Below are positions 37,917 to 46,542 of a stretch of DNA of 64,000 bases, piece by piece. This DNA is from Akkermansiaceae bacterium. Lineage in GTDB: Bacteria; Verrucomicrobiota; Verrucomicrobiia; Verrucomicrobiales; Akkermansiaceae. Position numbers and translations under genes: made by a program. The notes beneath the pieces were generated by a model. The model worked only from the letters and a program-made list of their open reading frames with translations. It was not told the origin of the DNA and made no database searches. The first letter of the stretch is position 1. Every line of letters begins with the position of its first letter. The stretch covers positions 1-64,000 of the forward strand of contig JANYEC010000082.1 in the NCBI GenBank assembly GCA_025363295.1, in the 5' to 3' direction.

Positions 37917-38798
37917 TCATCGTCCTACCCCATCAGCAAGCCAATCCAGACGGCGTTGGAGCTTGATCTGCCTTTCCGGAGACGGGTTCGGATAGAGGAT
38001 GGGATACCACGCGGTCATTACCACCGCACGAGCGACGAGGCAGTGGTGGAGCGCGTCGAGATCGATGCGCCCGCCGGACTGGCGATACGAATCAAGGATT
38101 GCATCCGCGGTGGTGTGATCTTCATCGAGCAGGCGCGCATTCCAGATGATAGATGCAAGGTCCCATTCCACCGGACCGCAGAAGGTGTCCTCCCAGTCGG
38201 TCCATAACAGGCCGAGCGTGGTGTTCATGAGGTTTCCGGGATGGGCATCACCGTGCAGCGGCTGATAGGAAAATTTTGAAAGTGCTTTGACGGACGCAAC
38301 AAGCCGCTCACGCAGCAAGTCAAGGGTGGCCAGGGGGAATAGCGCGCGCTTCTCCAGAGTGTCTAACAAATCAAGACTCTCGTTCAGGATTGCGAGTTCG
38401 GGCAACTGTTCGGGAAATAATCTCAGTAGCTTATGGCACTGATAGAGTGTGCTGCCAATTATCGCTGGGGCAGCCTCGGTAGTGATACTTGTGACGTATT
38501 GCCAAAAGTTGAGCGTGTAACCTAGATGTTCGTGCGGGACGGGGGGCAAAGAAGGATGTATGGGAATCACCGGAGCACCGTGCTGCGCAAGGTATTGCGC
38601 CACGGCATTTTCCCGCTCGAACCAAGCGCTGCCGTTGCGCGGACCTTGCAGATCCTGCACCACGCGGGCGACAAGTGTGTCCGTGAGCCGGAGCACCAAC
38701 GTGCTGCCGTTTTGCAGAATTTCACAACGGTCCGGTGTGATCCCGTGGGCGGCGGCTGTTTCCGTCGCGGCGCGGATGGGCAGTTGGAGGTCGGGCAT
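37917..38798 (-). CDS. Aminoglycoside phosphotransferase-family kinase
   Basis: 293 residues with the APH/choline-kinase catalytic loop LHGDAHPGN (D184) and metal-binding D201 in LLWTDWEDTFCGP followed by VEWDLASI. The N-lobe is atypical. The substrate could be an aminoglycoside, a small alcohol such as choline or ethanolamine, or another hydroxyl compound; the sequence does not decide. It is 6 bp downstream of the KH-domain gene on the same strand, so it is probably co-transcribed with it. Confidence 0.82.
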   Translation of the reverse strand: MPDLQLPIRAATETAAAHGITPDRCEILQNGSTLVLRLTDTLVARVVQDLQGPRNGSAWFERENAVAQYLAQHGAPVIPIHPSLPPVPHEHLGYTLNFWQYVTSITTEAAPAIIGSTLYQCHKLLRLFPEQLPELAILNESLDLLDTLEKRALFPLATLDLLRERLVASVKALSKFSYQPLHGDAHPGNLMNTTLGLLWTDWEDTFCGPVEWDLASIIWNARLLDEDHTTADAILDSYRQSGGRIDLDALHHCLVARAVVMTAWYPILYPNPSPERQIKLQRRLDWLADGVGR

Positions 38799-38804
38799 CG
38801 GGGC

Positions 38805-39455
38805 TTATCTACCCTTTTGAACTAACGGTTTATCCTCACTAACATCTTCTTCATGCGAGAGGATTTCTAGCAATGCATGCACTCCATGCATCGCTGCGGC
38901 CTCTTTTAAGATGCTGCGAATGGCGGAAGCTGTGTGACCCTCTTTACCGATCAACATCGCCATGTCCCGTTTCACGAGTATCAGTTTGAATCGCACCACG
39001 TCGGGCTCGATTTCTTGAATCCGGATTTGCGCGTGGTCCGGCTCATCGATCAAGTTGACGACCACGTATTGAAGAAAATTTTTCAAGCGAACCATGAGCG
39101 CCTGCATTTCCGTATGGCCCGGACCCTTGTGTAATAATTCGTTCGAGTTTCGTGGTTTTGTTTTGTCTTGGACTGTCGGAGAGCTGTTAAAATCCCACTC
39201 CATCACCTTGTAAGCGGCCGCCCGTTTGACCAGATCCACAAAATCAACCTCTCGATTCGCAATTTTATTCACTGCGGGCACGACGGTTCTGAAGTCCCAC
39301 TCCATCACTTGCAGGTTCCCTAATTTTCGTAAGGAGTGGCTAAGTTCGAGGTCGCTGATATCCTTGTTTAGGAGCGCCATGAAATCCCACTCAGTGACTT
39401 GGATCTCGCCGAGCCGTTTGAGAGAAGTGGTGATTTTTTTGATTTTTTTCGGCAT
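38805..39455 (-). CDS. KH-domain RNA-binding protein with three EWDF boxes
   Basis: 216 residues in two parts. Residues 1-95 contain three copies of a box [IL]-Q-V-[MT]-E-W-D-F or KVMEWDF, with EWDF at 22-25, 52-55 and 86-89, each preceded by a basic SLK/RxLG-like helix. Residues about 115-200 form a KhpA-like KH domain with DMAMLIGKEGHTASAIRSIL (GKEG loop at 170-173). KH domains bind single-stranded RNA; KhpA family members are normally about 75-90 residues long. I know no function for the EWDF part. I chose ATG 39455 (MPKKIKKITT); the frame is open upstream into the LysR gene. LysR ends 22 bp upstream. Confidence 0.72.
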   Translation of the reverse strand: MPKKIKKITTSLKRLGEIQVTEWDFMALLNKDISDLELSHSLRKLGNLQVMEWDFRTVVPAVNKIANREVDFVDLVKRAAAYKVMEWDFNSSPTVQDKTKPRNSNELLHKGPGHTEMQALMVRLKNFLQYVVVNLIDEPDHAQIRIQEIEPDVVRFKLILVKRDMAMLIGKEGHTASAIRSILKEAAAMHGVHALLEILSHEEDVSEDKPLVQKGR

Positions 39456-39477: not shown

Positions 39478-40404
39478 TCACGAAACGACGGTGATAGATG
39501 GTTCAACTTCGCGACCCTGCGCTCGGTCTTCGAGCAATTGAACGAAGTGCTTGATGTGGTGCGACGGCAGGTGACGCTGCCAGACCGCCCACATGTGGAA
39601 ATCGAGATTCGCTTTGGGGGCGGTGATTGGGATGATGACGACGTTCTGAGTTGCCAGATCTAACACATGAGGCAGTAACGAAATCCCCTGATCCGCCGCG
39701 ATCAGCGTGACCATCGAGTCAAAGCCGTCCACCTGCCGCACTTTGCTTGGCCGGATACCTTCCTCGGTATAAAATTGGGAGATCGTTTCGCGATGGTTAG
39801 AGCGGCCGTCTTCCCCGAGGCACAACAGGGTTTCCGCACGGATTTCCATCAGAGAGATTCCTTTTCTATCTGCTAGAGGATGCTGCCTTGAGATGGCGAT
39901 TCCGTAAATTGAGTGGACCACGCACAAGCTGCGCAGGCTGGTGATATTGAGTATCTCATTACCGTAAGCGAAGCCAATGTCGATGCGGCCCTTCGTAAGC
40001 GCATCGAGCTGTTCTCCGGGCAGCATTTCCACGAACGCCACTTCCACTCCCGGATACTTTTGATGAAAAATCTTCAGTGTCTTCGGCAGGAAATCCGTGG
40101 CGATGATTCCCACGCTGCCAATCTTCAGTTTACCTCGGTGGCCGGATTGTGCCTGGGTTGCGCGTTCGATCGCCCTTTCGGCATGAATCAGGAGTTCCTG
40201 CGAGTCCTCGAGAAACAATTCCCCGGCTTTGGTTAGAGAAACGCTCACGGTGTCTCGATCTAACAATTTTACCGAGATTTCCTCCTCCAGATCCTTCACC
40301 TGCTTGCTCAGCGCTGGGCGGCTGATATTGAGGCGTTGCGCGGCCTTCCGGAAACTTAGTTCCTCAGCGACCGCGACAAAGTATCTTAAATGCCTTAATT
40401 CCAT
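39478..40404 (-). CDS. LysR-family transcriptional regulator
   Basis: 308 residues from ATG 40404: an N-terminal winged HTH (MELRHLRYFVAVAEELSF, RLNISRPALSKQVKDLEEE) and a periplasmic-binding-like effector domain (LKIGSVGIIATDFLPKTL, GRIDIGFAYG, GISLLPHVLDL). The frame is open 41 codons further upstream without homology. It is divergent from the RND efflux operon, with 121 bp between the two starts containing two dyads, so it probably controls that operon and its own gene. Confidence 0.9.
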   Translation of the reverse strand: MELRHLRYFVAVAEELSFRKAAQRLNISRPALSKQVKDLEEEISVKLLDRDTVSVSLTKAGELFLEDSQELLIHAERAIERATQAQSGHRGKLKIGSVGIIATDFLPKTLKIFHQKYPGVEVAFVEMLPGEQLDALTKGRIDIGFAYGNEILNITSLRSLCVVHSIYGIAISRQHPLADRKGISLMEIRAETLLCLGEDGRSNHRETISQFYTEEGIRPSKVRQVDGFDSMVTLIAADQGISLLPHVLDLATQNVVIIPITAPKANLDFHMWAVWQRHLPSHHIKHFVQLLEDRAQGREVEPSITVVS

Positions 40405-40413
40405 CTCGCGCGA

Positions 40414-40434
40414 CTGGTAATCTAAAGTTACCAG
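40414..40434. promoter_or_regulatory. Candidate LysR operator, T-N11-A dyad
   Basis: CTGGTAA (40414-40420), spacer TCTAAAG, TTACCAG (40428-40434) is a perfect 7-bp inverted repeat with a T-N11-A core (T40418, A40430), the classical LysR-type recognition shape. It lies 10 bp before the lysR start and about 90 bp before the efflux operon, as expected for autoregulation and divergent control. Confidence 0.6.
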
Positions 40435-40455
40435 CATGGAAACATCAAAGTTATT

Positions 40456-40473
40456 CTGATTGAGGAAAATCAG
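40456..40473. promoter_or_regulatory. Second dyad in the lysR-efflux intergenic region
   Basis: CTGATT, spacer GAGGAA, AATCAG is a perfect 6-bp inverted repeat about 40 bp from the first dyad, on the efflux side. It could be the activation half-site of the LysR regulator or overlap the efflux promoter. Its sequence differs from the first dyad, so a common protein is not certain. Confidence 0.35.
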
Positions 40474-40525
40474 GCGATAGAGTAGCCCACCCGAGTTTCT
40501 GTCAGTTTTTCGTCCGACCACCACC

Positions 40526-41641
40526 ATGCGCCCTTTATTTTTTGTGCTTTTTCCCGCCGTTTGGCTGTGTCTCCCGAGTTGTGGGAAAAAGGCCGTCCCG
40601 ACACCTCCTCAGATGCCCCCAGCTGCGGTGTCGTTCCTTCCTGCCTCCATGGAAACCGTCACCATCACTCGCGATTTACCGGGTCGTATCGATGCCTTGC
40701 GCGTCGCGGAAATCCGGGCCCGGGTTGCGGGAATCCTCTTGAAAAAAACATTTCAGGAGGGTGCCGATGTGAAAGCGGGTGACGTGCTTTTTCAGATCGA
40801 CCCTGCGCCGCTGCAAGCCGCTCATGACAGCGCTGAGGCGAACCTTGCCCGTGCAGAAGCCAACTCCAGACAAGCAGAAAACCAAGCGAGCCGCTCACGC
40901 GAGCTTGTCGCAGTCAATGCTGTTAGTAAGCAGGAGGCGGATAATTCGGAATCCGCACTCACGGTCGCCGCTGCAGAAATCCTTGCTGCGAAAGCCGCCC
41001 TCGCGACGGCCCAGCTCAATCTCGGCTATGCTGCCGTGACCGCTCCCATCTCAGGCCGCATTGGCAAGGCACAGGTAACCGAAGGTGCGCTCGTGGGCCA
41101 AGGAAATGCCACTTTGTTAGCTGTTATTCAACAGCTTGATCCGATCTACTTTGATTTCACCCAGTCTAGCAGCGATCTCATCGCCCTTAAGAAATCTGGA
41201 GCGGCTCACAACGAAGCCACGCTCCTGCTAGAAGATGGCAGTGAATACGAATTCCCAGGTCGCATTCTTTTTTCCGAAGCATTCGTGGACGAAACAACGG
41301 GCATGGTGAGTCTTAGGGCAGAATTTCCCAACCCTAAGCGGGACCTGCTCCCCGGCATGTTCGCTAGGGCGCGGGTGATCCAATCCGTGCGGGAAAACGT
41401 GATCACCGTTCCTCAGCGCGCCCTCACTCGCGGAGCTGGCGGCGCGGGCACACTCATGGTCATCGATGATTCTAACCACGCCCAACTCCACATGGTGCAA
41501 ACCGGTGAAATGACGGGAGACAAATGGGTCGTGAACTCCGGGCTCAAAGCAGGCGAGCGAGTGATCATCGAAGGCTTGCTCAAGGCGAGGCCTGGTGCAC
41601 CCGTGGTCCCGGAGCCTTTTGTCCCCGCCCCGAAAAACTAA
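40526..41641 (+). CDS. RND efflux periplasmic adaptor (AcrA/MexA-like lipoprotein)
   Basis: 371 residues. The N-terminus MRPLFFVLFPAVWLCLPSCG is a lipoprotein signal with a lipobox ending at Cys19. The lipoyl halves (RVAGILLKKTFQEGADVKAG and ITAPISGRIG-like VTAPISGRIGKAQVTEGALVG), a coiled coil between them (about 90-150), and a beta-barrel domain follow. This is the AcrA/MexA architecture. It is the first gene of a three-gene operon with the pump (12 bp downstream) and the outer membrane channel. Confidence 0.92.
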   Translation: MRPLFFVLFPAVWLCLPSCGKKAVPTPPQMPPAAVSFLPASMETVTITRDLPGRIDALRVAEIRARVAGILLKKTFQEGADVKAGDVLFQIDPAPLQAAHDSAEANLARAEANSRQAENQASRSRELVAVNAVSKQEADNSESALTVAAAEILAAKAALATAQLNLGYAAVTAPISGRIGKAQVTEGALVGQGNATLLAVIQQLDPIYFDFTQSSSDLIALKKSGAAHNEATLLLEDGSEYEFPGRILFSEAFVDETTGMVSLRAEFPNPKRDLLPGMFARARVIQSVRENVITVPQRALTRGAGGAGTLMVIDDSNHAQLHMVQTGEMTGDKWVVNSGLKAGERVIIEGLLKARPGAPVVPEPFVPAPKN

Positions 41642-41653
41642 TTTTCCAATTTC

Positions 41654-44600
41654 ATGGCTCAATTCTTTATCGACCGCCCGGTTTTCGCTTGGGTGATCTC
41701 CATCCTCATCTGTGTCCTCGGTGGCATCGCCATCACCGGACTTCCCGTTGCGCAATACCCGAGTGTCGCCCCGCCTTCGATCTCTATCACTGCCAACTAC
41801 GCAGGTGCTTCCGCAGAAACATTGAGCGATACGGTGACTTCTGTGATTGAGCAACAACTCAACGGGATCGACAACCTGCTCTACATGTCGTCCGCCAGCG
41901 ATGCGAATGGAAATGCCGTTATCACGCTCTATTTCAAACCAGGCACCAATCCGGATGTGGCCCAAGTGCAGGTGCAAAACAAGGTGCAGCTCGCTACGCC
42001 AAGCCTCCCTCTAACTGTCCAACAGCAGGGCGTGGTAGTGGCAAAGGCGACCCGGAACTTCATGATGTTCATCTCGCTCTCTTCGGAAGACGAGAGCATG
42101 GACGCAATTGGTCTCGGGAATTACCTTGCCTCTAACGTGCTTGATCCGATTCGGCGCGTGGCGGGCGTCGGCGAGGTCATCCAGTTCGGCACGCAGAACG
42201 CCATGCGCATTTGGCTCGATCCCGACAAGCTCGTGAGCTTCAAACTAACACCTGCCGATATCTCGGCGGCGGTCCAAGTGCAGAACACACAGGTGCCTGT
42301 CGGTCAGCTCGGCCAGCTTCCGGCGGTGACCGGCCAGCAGCTCAACGTGATTTTACAAGGTCGTGCAACACTTCGTGAGGTCGAGGAATTCAAAAACATT
42401 GTCCTTCGCGTGAATCCTGACGGCTCGCGGCTCTATCTGCGAGATGTCGCTCGTGTCGAGCTTGGCGGGCAGGACTACTCGATTAAAGCCCGCATCGACG
42501 GTAAGCCGGCGTCTGCCGCCGCCGTGAAGCTTTCGCCCACCGCCAATGCGCTTGACACCGCCGCCGCCGTGCGGAAAGAAGTGGATCGGCTAAAGGAGTT
42601 TTTCCCGGCGGGCGTGAAGGTGACTTACCCGTTAGACACTTCGTTATTCGTTAGAATTTCCGTCGATGAAGTGCTCAAGACGCTTATCGAGGCGATCATT
42701 CTGGTGTTCCTGGTAATGTATCTTTTTCTCCAGAATCTCCGCGCCACTCTCATCCCCACGCTGGTCGTTCCGGTCGCCCTGCTAGGCACTTGCGGAATTC
42801 TGGCAGCTTTTGGATTTTCTATCAATGTGCTCACCATGTTCGGCATGGTGCTCGCCATTGGCATTCTAGTGGACGACGCGATCGTGGTGGTGGAGAACGT
42901 CGAGCGCATCATGAGCGAGGAGGGACTTCCCGCCAAGGAGGCGACGCGAAAAGCGATGAGCCAGATTACCAGTGCGCTGATAGGAATTACTCTCGTTCTC
43001 ACCGCCGTCTTCATCCCGATGGCGTTCTTCGGTGGCTCTGTAGGCACGATTTATCGGCAGTTCACAATGTCGATGGTGTCCTGCATGATATTCTCGGTAT
43101 TTCTCGCGCTGTCTCTAACTCCCGCACTTTGTGGTTCGCTCTTGAAACAAGTCGATGCCGGACATCATCAAGCCAAGCGCGGTTTTTTTGGTTGGTTCAA
43201 TCGCTCCTTCGATGCCTTTACGAACCGTTACCAAAGCTGGGTGGCCATGTTAGTGAAGCGGACTTTCATCGGCATCATCACTCTGATAGGGATTTTATTC
43301 CTCGTGTTCACTTTGTATCAAAGGATGCCATCCGCATTCTTACCGGAGGAAGACCAAGGCTATTTCCTGACGCTCATTTCACTGCCCGTTGGCGCAACCG
43401 ATGCTCGCACTGGCGAGGCACTGTTGAAGGTTGAGGAGTATTTGGCCAAACAATCTGAAATCGAACACTACTTCACCGTCGCGGGTTTCAGCTTCGCCGG
43501 ACGAGCGCAAAACTCAGCCCTTGCTTTCATCCGCCTCAAGCCGTGGGAAGAGCGGGCGGGAAAAGATCACCACGTGCAAGCCGTGATCCAGCACGCACTC
43601 AAGGGCCTCAGTGGCATCAAGGATGCTATGGTTTTCTCGGTGAATCCGCCGGCGATTCCTGAGCTTGGGACCTCATCCGGTTTCGATTTCTGGCTGCAGG
43701 ATGTCGGCGGTGTCGGCCATGAAACGTTAATGGCGGCAAGTGGCCAGCTTTTGGGAATGGCCGCGAAAAATCCTGCGCTGATGCAAGTCCGCCCCCAAGG
43801 CCTAGCGGATGCGGCGCAAATGAAGATCGAGCTCGATCAGGACAAGGCCAGTGCACTGGGTGTTTCTCTAGCAGATATCAATGCGACAATGCAAACCGCG
43901 TTTGGCTCCAGTTATGTGAACAACTTCGTCAACGGTCCGCGCGTCCAGCGGGTAATTGTCCAGCTCGATGCGGCGTTCCGCATGACGCCGGAAGATCTCG
44001 GCAAGGTCTATCTCCGAAATAAAGTCGGTGGAATGGTGCCCCTGTCCTCATTCACTAACATTCATTGGACGTATGGCTCGCCGCAGCTTCAGCGGTACAA
44101 CGGCATCCCTTCGATCAATATCGTGGGGGCCGCTGCGCCCGGACTGAGCTCTGGGGAAGCAATGTTAGAAATGGAAAAAATGGCCGAGCAACTTCCCCGT
44201 GGCGTAGGCTTCTCCTGGAGCGGTCAATCCCTCGAAGAAAGGATTTCCGGAAATCAAGCGCCCATGCTTTACGGCATTTCCCTGCTGATCGTTTTTCTGT
44301 GCCTCGCCGCTCTTTACGAAAGTTGGTCGATCCCTGTCGCAGTGATCATGGTTGTTCCGTTAGGGATTCTTGGTGCTCTTGCGGCGGTCTCTTTTCGCGA
44401 ATTGCCGAATGACGTCTATTTTAAAGTTGGGTTACTCACCACCGTCGGCCTTTCCACGAAAAACGCGATCCTCATCATCGAGTTCGCGCTCGATCTTCAG
44501 AAAGAAGGAAAGGGTTTGATCGAATCCATTCTCGAAGCAGTGAAGCTCCGCTTGCGCCCCATCCTAATGACTTCGATGGCCTTCATCCTGGGCGTAATGC

Positions 44601-44779
44601 CACTCGTGATCAGCAATGGGGCCGGGTCAGCCAGTCAAAACGCGATCGGCACCGGAGTCGCCGGAGGAATGATCTCGGGCACCATCCTCGCGATTTTCCT
44701 CGTTCCGGTTTTCTTTGTTTTCGTGAGCAAGATCGTTGCCCGCTTTACCGGGAAAAAAGGAGAAATTCATCATGCGTAA
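41654..44779 (+). CDS. RND multidrug efflux pump (AcrB/MexB-like)
   Basis: 1041 residues, normal for the hydrophobe/amphiphile efflux-1 family. It begins MAQFFIDRPVFAWVISILIC. The proton-relay aspartates are in helix 4 (LAIGILVDDAIVVVENVER), and GQDYSIKARIDG, GVMPLVIS and the usual duplicated 6+6 helix layout are present. It exports drugs, dyes or detergents from the inner membrane and periplasm using the proton gradient. The stop overlaps the channel gene start by 8 bp. Confidence 0.95.
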   Translation: MAQFFIDRPVFAWVISILICVLGGIAITGLPVAQYPSVAPPSISITANYAGASAETLSDTVTSVIEQQLNGIDNLLYMSSASDANGNAVITLYFKPGTNPDVAQVQVQNKVQLATPSLPLTVQQQGVVVAKATRNFMMFISLSSEDESMDAIGLGNYLASNVLDPIRRVAGVGEVIQFGTQNAMRIWLDPDKLVSFKLTPADISAAVQVQNTQVPVGQLGQLPAVTGQQLNVILQGRATLREVEEFKNIVLRVNPDGSRLYLRDVARVELGGQDYSIKARIDGKPASAAAVKLSPTANALDTAAAVRKEVDRLKEFFPAGVKVTYPLDTSLFVRISVDEVLKTLIEAIILVFLVMYLFLQNLRATLIPTLVVPVALLGTCGILAAFGFSINVLTMFGMVLAIGILVDDAIVVVENVERIMSEEGLPAKEATRKAMSQITSALIGITLVLTAVFIPMAFFGGSVGTIYRQFTMSMVSCMIFSVFLALSLTPALCGSLLKQVDAGHHQAKRGFFGWFNRSFDAFTNRYQSWVAMLVKRTFIGIITLIGILFLVFTLYQRMPSAFLPEEDQGYFLTLISLPVGATDARTGEALLKVEEYLAKQSEIEHYFTVAGFSFAGRAQNSALAFIRLKPWEERAGKDHHVQAVIQHALKGLSGIKDAMVFSVNPPAIPELGTSSGFDFWLQDVGGVGHETLMAASGQLLGMAAKNPALMQVRPQGLADAAQMKIELDQDKASALGVSLADINATMQTAFGSSYVNNFVNGPRVQRVIVQLDAAFRMTPEDLGKVYLRNKVGGMVPLSSFTNIHWTYGSPQLQRYNGIPSINIVGAAAPGLSSGEAMLEMEKMAEQLPRGVGFSWSGQSLEERISGNQAPMLYGISLLIVFLCLAALYESWSIPVAVIMVVPLGILGALAAVSFRELPNDVYFKVGLLTTVGLSTKNAILIIEFALDLQKEGKGLIESILEAVKLRLRPILMTSMAFILGVMPLVISNGAGSASQNAIGTGVAGGMISGTILAIFLVPVFFVFVSKIVARFTGKKGEIHHA

Positions 44780-46151
44780 GTCATCTGTTATAACTCTTTT
44801 TATCGCACTTCTATCAGGGGCCTGCTCACTTGTGCCGGCGCTTGATCCACGGTCCTCTCCGGTCTCCGCAAAGTTCCCGGGGAAAACCGGCGGCGAAGTC
44901 TCCGCCGACATCGCTTGGCAAATTTTTTTCACGGATCCACGCTTGAGAAAACTTGTTGAAGTGGCTCTGGCGAACAACCGTGATTTGAAGATTGCCACGC
45001 TTAACGTAGAGCAAGCTCGTGCCCAATATTCCATTTCCCGCAGTGAGTTGTTCCCTTCGCCAAGCGGGCACGCATCCAGCGAACGCAAGCGTGGACTCGG
45101 CCCCCCAGGCTCTAGCGGTTCTTCGTTAGTATCTGGCTCTTACGAAGTTTCTGTGGGTTTGGTATCTTATGAACTCGATCTCTTTGGCCGCGTCCGCAGC
45201 TTGAATAGTGCGGCGTTAGAAACCTATTTCGCAAGTGACGCCGCACGGGTCGGAGCCCAAATCTCGCTGGTTGCGCAAGTCGCGAACCAATACCTCGCCG
45301 AGCGTGCGCTTCAGGAACAAATCTCCCTCGCGGAGCAGACTTTAGTCGGCATGGACAGCGCTTATGACATCATGAAAAAACGATTCGACGTTGGAACCGT
45401 CTCAGAGCTCGAACTTAGCTCCATGGAAATCCAGCGCCAAACCGCCAAGGTGGATCTCGCGACCTTTCGCCAGCGCAGTCAGGAAATCACCAACTCATTG
45501 GTGTTTCTAGCAGGTGGATCGATTCCCTCCAACCTGCCTAACGGGCGCTCGCTCGACCAGGTCGTGGTGGCCGAGGTCAAAGCCGGAGTTTCCTCGGATC
45601 TGTTATATCGCCGCCCCGATATTCGTGAGGCAGAACACCTGCTTCGTGCGGCGAATGCCAATATCGGCGCCGCGCGTGCGGCTTGTTTTCCAAGCGTCAC
45701 ACTCACTGCAAGCGGCGGCACTGCCAGTCGCAGTTTTTCCAAGCTCTTCACCAGCGGCACAGGCACTTGGTTATTTTCACCAAACGTGAACCTCCCGATT
45801 TTCGACGGCGGAGCTAACATAGCGAACCTCAAATCCGTAGAAGTTAGTAAGCAGATCGCCATCGCCAATTACGAAAAATCGATCCAGACCGGCTTCCGCG
45901 AGGTCGCGGACAGTCTCTCCTCCCGCAGCGGGTTGGCCGAGCGCATTACGGCGACGGAAAGCCTCGTTGCCGCCCAACAGAAACGCACCTATCTCGCCAG
46001 TGCTCGCTACACAAAAGGCGTGGACAGCTATTTCGAAGTGCTTAACGCCACCCTCGATCTATTCAACGCTCGCCAGCGGCTCATCCAGCTCCGCCTCGCC
46101 CGCGCCTTCAATTCCGTCAATCTCTACAAAGCCCTCGGCGGCGGTTGGTGA
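44772..46151 (+). CDS. RND outer membrane channel (OprM/NodT-type lipoprotein)
   Basis: 459 residues from ATG 44772. The signal peptide ends in LLSGACSLVP (lipobox Cys17). Two outer membrane efflux repeats follow: LVEVALANNRDLKIATLNVEQA with YEVSVGLVSYELDLFGRV, and YRRPDIREAEHLLRAANANIGAARAAC with LFSPNVNLPIFDGG. This is the TolC-family channel for the pump in the same operon. ATG 44736 is an in-frame alternative but lies inside the pump gene and has no signal peptide. Confidence 0.93.
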   Translation: MRKSSVITLFIALLSGACSLVPALDPRSSPVSAKFPGKTGGEVSADIAWQIFFTDPRLRKLVEVALANNRDLKIATLNVEQARAQYSISRSELFPSPSGHASSERKRGLGPPGSSGSSLVSGSYEVSVGLVSYELDLFGRVRSLNSAALETYFASDAARVGAQISLVAQVANQYLAERALQEQISLAEQTLVGMDSAYDIMKKRFDVGTVSELELSSMEIQRQTAKVDLATFRQRSQEITNSLVFLAGGSIPSNLPNGRSLDQVVVAEVKAGVSSDLLYRRPDIREAEHLLRAANANIGAARAACFPSVTLTASGGTASRSFSKLFTSGTGTWLFSPNVNLPIFDGGANIANLKSVEVSKQIAIANYEKSIQTGFREVADSLSSRSGLAERITATESLVAAQQKRTYLASARYTKGVDSYFEVLNATLDLFNARQRLIQLRLARAFNSVNLYKALGGGW

Positions 46152-46191: not shown

Positions 46192-46512
46192 CTAGGTGCT
46201 GCCCGGGAGCCTGCTGCGGTGGAGGTCGGTGTAGATTTGCTCAGGGCTGTAGTTGCACTCAAGCTTCACGACAATCATTGCGGCAATTGCCTCGGTGATC
46301 ACAGTGGCCCGGGGAATCTTCGATGCCTTTCGTTGAAGAGCTCTTGAGTGGGCTTGCCCAGGACGGGTAAAGTTCTTGGAAACCTCCTTGCTGATCGTTC
46401 CTTGACTGAAACCGAGCAGCTCAGCGATCTGGACTTGAGAAGCTTTTTGTTTGATCAGGCGGGCGATGATTCTACGGTCCTCCTGACGAAGGTGGCGGAT
46501 TGTTTTTGGCAT
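46192..46512 (-). pseudogene. IS30-family transposase remnant (N-terminal part)
   Basis: 106 residues with a helix-turn-helix of IS30 type (RHLRQEDRRIIARLIKQK, AELLGFSQGTISKEVSKN) and the box NYSPEQIYTDL that follows it in IS30 transposases. The DDE catalytic domain is missing: the frame stops 40 bp from the efflux operon end. No terminal inverted repeats were found. It is a decayed insertion sequence. Confidence 0.7.
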
Positions 46513-46542
46513 TGTTTGTTTTTGTCGACGCGATGCTAACAA

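Follow-up and report, generated by a model that had tools for sequence, protein, structure and literature searches.

A KhpA-like KH protein of Akkermansiaceae with a tandem-repeat N-terminal module

Results

Gene and genomic context

The window analyzed here is a stretch of 64,000 nucleotides from an Akkermansiaceae genome (contig JANYEC010000082.1). On its minus strand, from 39455 to 38805, lies a gene whose translation in the window is a protein of 216 amino acids, which we call the EWDF-KH protein after its two most recognizable parts. The coding sequence (38805–39455) begins with an ATG at 39455, although a longer alternative frame would begin with a TTG at 39506. Because the N termini of the orthologs coincide with the ATG (with starts of the form M-[PAS]-x), we took the conserved position 39455 as the start.

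A gene for a LysR regulator (39478–40527) and one for an APH-family phosphotransferase (37917–38798) flank the EWDF-KH gene on the same strand, and the short gaps of 22 and 6 nucleotides suggest that the three may be co-transcribed. The order LysR, EWDF-KH, APH-like kinase was not kept in other species, and apart from loci on the same contig that had been fetched twice and one weak pair, no common neighbor gene was found among the orthologs. Because the neighbors differ in this way, we rejected an operon or a partner protein deduced from gene neighborhood. The start of the LysR gene adjoins a divergently oriented RND efflux set (an HlyD-type adaptor, an AcrB-like pump and an outer membrane channel; 40526–46151 of the window), which the LysR protein likely regulates. 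Just beyond it (46192–46542) is encoded an HTH_38 protein of 116 amino acids that resembles the N terminus of an IS30-type transposase and is possibly a transposase remnant.

The KH domain and its relation to KhpA

The C-terminal part of the protein is a KH-II domain of the KhpA/KhpB type (residues 117–205; 38841–39107, minus strand), as supported by Pfam, AlphaFold2 and Foldseek. The match to KH_KhpA-B (PF13083) runs from residue 125 to 198 and over the entire model (positions 1–73 of 73), with an E value of 1e-12 and a score of 48.2 bits, above the curated cut-off of 32.1. An AlphaFold2 prediction from 16 orthologs recovered the KH-II fold and its order of elements with a pLDDT of ~90, and Foldseek matched the domain to the KH domains of ribosomal protein S3, Era and KhpB. 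The domain carries a GKEG sequence (residues 170–173; 38937–38948, minus strand) as its GxxG, the phosphate-binding loop of KH domains, and both glycines were present in 28 of 28 orthologs. The middle residues of the loop and its neighbors vary more than in stand-alone KhpA, so RNA binding may have changed. In Streptococcus pneumoniae, KhpA binds single-stranded RNA and forms homo- or heterodimers, and changing the loop to GDDG abolishes the binding of RNA (PMC6403258).

The same genomes keep a gene for a stand-alone KhpA-like protein of ~98 residues, which shares with the EWDF-KH protein the KH-II domain with its GxxG but lacks the repeat module and linker. Based on its length of 216 amino acids, the existence of this separate 98-amino-acid KhpA-like gene and scores well short of the NCBIfam KhpA equivalog cut-offs (50.9 versus 85 bits and 35 versus 106 bits), the EWDF-KH protein is not KhpA in the strict sense. 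KhpB (EloR, Jag) is likewise a multi-domain protein with a KH domain of the KhpA/B type, and the Thermus KhpB (9lrg) was among the Foldseek matches, but its domain order differs; a Pfam search found neither an R3H nor a Jag-N domain in the EWDF-KH protein, which scored 16.5 bits against the Jag_EloR cut-off of 145. The genome also contains a third, weaker match to a KH domain of the KhpA/B type, below cut-off, in a frame of 159 amino acids (G000:C64:8937-9098) that has a similar length in relatives and whose product is possibly a KhpB-like partner.

The KH domain of the EWDF-KH protein is 57% identical to the 98-amino-acid KhpA of its own genome, and the stand-alone KhpA-like proteins of relatives are 70–88% identical to that copy. 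For the EWDF-KH orthologs, identities were 41–62%. On a tree of KH domains (88 columns, with many forks unresolved), the fused forms clustered together and separately from the stand-alone forms, with the exception of two rows that were labeled stand-alone: a module-bearing contig fragment (L095) and a frame-broken gene (L093) that sits between the two groups. The EWDF-KH gene thus appears to be a paralog of stand-alone KhpA with a single origin, and most simply, a single event of duplication and fusion took place, after which the protein changed faster.

The EWDF boxes are the cores of ~30-residue repeats

Upstream of the KH domain lies a module of 92 residues (residues 1–92; 39180–39455, minus strand) with three boxes: VTEWDF at residues 20–25 (39381–39398), VMEWDF at 50–55 (39291–39308) and VMEWDF at 84–89 (39189–39206), with a consensus across units of V-x-[ED]-W-[DE]-F. 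A sequence-only reading of this locus had described a KhpA-like KH domain preceded by three such boxes about 30–34 residues apart; both the layout and the spacing (measured as 30 and 34) were borne out. Its claim that each box follows a basic SLKRLG-like stretch held for the first two (SLKRLG and SLRKLG), whereas LVKRAA before the third is only loosely alike. Searching coding DNA patterns in the 3.48-Mb genome assembly, we found exactly three occurrences of the box pattern, all within the EWDF-KH gene, and none of a backwards control. A looser pattern also gave six scattered matches, close to the four given by its own control, and therefore does not point to a second box-bearing protein in the genome.

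To compare the units, separate profiles of units 1, 2 and 3 were each built from 26 orthologs and aligned with hhalign. Unit 1 (core, residues 8–30; 39366–39434) matched unit 2 (residues 38–60; 39276–39344) with a probability of 97.8%, and unit 2 matched unit 3 (residues 74–92; 39180–39236) with 97.6%; units 1 and 3 matched each other with 47.4%, and 16 column-shuffled profiles reached at most 5.4%. Matches so far above the shuffled controls led us to reject a chance origin of the boxes and identify them as the cores of true internal repeats. The boxes proposed from sequence alone are thus real, although the repeating element is a unit of ~30 residues, with the box as its core.

The number of units also varies, such that the count of three, correct for the window protein, does not hold throughout the family. 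One ortholog (L007) has five boxes, spaced 30, 30, 27 and 34 residues apart. Its extra units are direct repeats with a spacing of 90 nucleotides, and over 70 nucleotides their identity to the reference copy is 86% and 83%. Another ortholog (L094) lacks the third unit. In a further genome (L093 in G718:C150, minus strand), the module and KH domain lie in different frames, broken at an A7 run at positions 1010–1020 of the reverse-complemented locus; the cause may be an assembly or sequencing indel, a real mutation or slippage. Because the KH domain follows in the other frame across this run, we rejected a stand-alone, KH-less module in this genome, and there is no clear evidence of a separate module gene.

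Distribution of the family

A profile search of 260 Akkermansiaceae genomes found the module encoded in 32 of them, which belong to 2 of the 16 genera, and orthologs were also retrieved from a sample of the class. No further match at E < 0.01 emerged from 387 genomes of the phylum; the weaker matches that the module profile gave in the rest of the phylum (E 0.01–0.1) were short and partial, many of them in large proteins, and were judged to be due to chance. An exact-peptide scan of 84,980 species, which alone covered phyla outside Verrucomicrobiota and leaves room for distant relatives there, returned 11 loci, labeled only as Luteolibacter, Akkermansia, Akkermansiaceae, Verrucomicrobiaceae or Verrucomicrobia. 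Phages, plasmids and IMG/VR yielded no matches, leading us to reject a phage or plasmid origin. Judged from these searches, the EWDF-KH protein is confined to some of the relatives of Akkermansia that are free-living. The suggestion that the layout was undescribed also stood, in that no Pfam, NCBIfam or PHROGs family matches the combination of a KH domain with EWDF boxes, nor is this architecture named in the open-access literature that we found. Although phmmer reported a weak match of the module to a designed TPR (E = 0.015), no TPR family of Pfam matched at E values up to 1, and we rejected a TPR origin.

Such patchy occurrence, together with the frame broken at the A7 run, is what one might see if the gene were a leftover of duplication without a distinct function. 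Substitution rates speak against this idea, which we regard as highly improbable: in the module, dN was 0.09–0.20 and dS 0.21–0.80, with dN below dS in every close pair, by which measure the module is under purifying selection, and the gene has been retained over the deep divergence of its orthologs.

Conservation of the module as a unit

For 28 full-length orthologs with three units, mean pairwise identity was 55% over residues 1–92, 20% in the linker and 53% in the KH domain. The polar linker (residues 93–116; 39108–39179, minus strand) ranged in length from 9 to 31 residues, whereas the module was gap-free in 15 orthologs; units 2 and 3 had no indels in any of the 28, and unit 1 had indels in a few members. 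The boxes themselves proved to be conserved, a point on which the sequence-only reading had staked its case. Box 3 was the most constant, with Y82-K83-V84-x-x-W87-D88-F89 nearly invariant and the tryptophan present in 27 of 28 orthologs; box 2 likewise kept its tryptophan in 27 of 28, and box 1, the most degenerate, in 21 of 28 (lost in seven). Conservation also extended to residues between the boxes, namely E37, L42, R43, L45, G46, A66, E69, R78, A80, Y82 and K83; all of these but R43 and L45 were counted among the invariant or almost invariant positions.

This pattern bears on the original interpretation of the boxes as short linear docking motifs. Read in that way, each EWDF box would be an independent motif in a disordered array and bind a single partner molecule, with everything else serving as spacer. 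The array would account for the multiple acidic, tryptophan-bearing boxes, their varying copy number and the low AlphaFold2 confidence throughout the module, for which pLDDT was mostly <50 in the window protein (from a shallow alignment) and pTM was 0.25 in the five-unit version, with no confident module fold. In a spacer, however, neither the conserved inter-box residues nor the absence of indels in units 2 and 3 would be expected, and the composition of residues 1–92 (GRAVY −0.24, net charge +1.6, pI 9.0) is atypical of disorder. By the charge–hydropathy rule of thumb, these residues would be classed as folded and the linker (GRAVY −1.68; pLDDT <50 to residue 108) as disordered. The low confidence of AlphaFold2 could reflect either a young family with a shallow alignment or a module that is disordered on its own, and the conservation pattern favors the former. 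Because inter-box residues are conserved, units 2 and 3 are free of indels and only the linker varies freely, one repeat domain fits better, and the boxes seem to belong to a single small domain of this kind and not to be separate docking peptides; we consider the docking array unlikely.

The same residues can be read in two other ways. The module might be a second RNA- or DNA-binding element, in which the SLKRLG stretches would touch phosphates and the box tryptophans would stack on bases, raising the affinity of the KH domain. The conserved basic residues preceding the boxes (R43, K/R44, K77, R78 and K83) and the module's high pI are consistent with such an element, but the boxes are acidic (E/D at two positions), the net charge is small, and no known nucleic-acid-binding family matched above sub-threshold noise, making this reading unlikely. 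Alternatively, the acidic boxes, with their W, D and F residues, might mimic RNA and fill the KH cleft until displaced. Acidic C-terminal domains reportedly act in this way in the RNA chaperone Hfq, which offers a functional analogy only: in both proteins a segment is attached flexibly to a core that binds RNA, but Hfq has an unrelated fold, and the attached segment of the EWDF-KH protein is, by contrast, conserved throughout. Acid-aromatic boxes flexibly linked to an adjoining RNA-binding domain would suit such autoinhibition, yet conservation extends far beyond the boxes, the KH residues beside the GxxG vary and the linker length is very variable. We find autoinhibition improbable.

A partial likeness to Peptidase_S74

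The one recurrent lead from known families was Peptidase_S74 (PF13884), of which unit 2 repeatedly matched profile positions 7–32 of 58. This half-profile match scored 19.5 bits for the window module, as much as 22 bits in proteins with three units and 30.9 bits in the five-unit ortholog, compared with a cut-off of 22. Compared directly at the profile level, 14 S74 domains of the class gave a probability of 45% and a score of 24.7 (12 shuffles and a reversed control gave ≤13.7), and the box fell on the strand after the first helix (LPITEWQYK in L148 and IRVTEWDFK in L007), a strand that AlphaFold2 does not predict in the module. S74 domains occurred in 30 of 188 genomes of the class (L124–L153); one genome (G101) had as many as 11, and many of the domains lay in large proteins. 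These domains, also called ICA domains, trimerize and self-cleave by means of a Ser-Lys dyad (PMC8326128). A conserved S-D-x-x-x-K, present in the compared S74 domains, was absent before unit 2 in the ortholog alignment; the GFIAQE...VFPE half of the domain is likewise lacking, and the EWDF unit is tandemly repeated and does not sit within a tail fiber or surface protein. With no full-length match, no Ser-Lys motif and no second half, we rejected membership in S74. The likeness to the α1–β1 half could be due to descent or to convergence of a helix and strand. We consider it quite unlikely that the unit represents a novel modular repeat domain, possibly derived from the α1–β1 half of S74, that oligomerizes the KH protein.

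Discussion

We propose, with a probability of about one-half, that the EWDF-KH protein is a lineage-specific paralog of KhpA whose tandem module of ~30-residue units would provide an assembly surface for an RNA binder. According to this proposal, a duplicated KH-II domain would have acquired the N-terminal units; its GxxG loop being intact, it would still bind single-stranded RNA, and it may also dimerize as KhpA does. The module would be a surface for protein–protein contacts, in which the tryptophans and phenylalanines of the boxes could serve as repeated hydrophobic contacts; by making the protein oligomerize, or by binding a partner, it might hold more than one KH domain, or an enzyme that acts as partner, on one RNA, and the flexible linker would allow each KH domain to search for RNA independently. 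Because KhpA homodimerizes and pairs with KhpB/EloR through helix α3 of its KH domain (PMC6403258), an additional surface for contacts would lead to complexes of higher order.

Going by the sequence features described above, self-assembly or partner binding is the most likely function of the module. The likeness to the α1–β1 half of S74/ICA, part of a homotrimerizing domain, would fit an assembly role, if weakly, whereas the lack of a confident AlphaFold2 fold for the module and of a conserved neighbor pointing to a partner argues against it.

Hardly any open-access work seems to have dealt with post-transcriptional regulators in Verrucomicrobiota; what a literature search on the phylum, KH domains and RNA-binding proteins brought up concerned Borrelia. 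An extra KhpA whose module is conserved and expandable offers a defined protein and defined residues (W53, W87 and the GxxG) with which the organization of KH-protein complexes can be probed, and the catalog of domains gains a repeat module that as yet has no name. If the unit were indeed a new oligomerizing repeat domain, it would constitute a lineage-specific, expandable scaffold for RNA–protein assemblies in Verrucomicrobiota.
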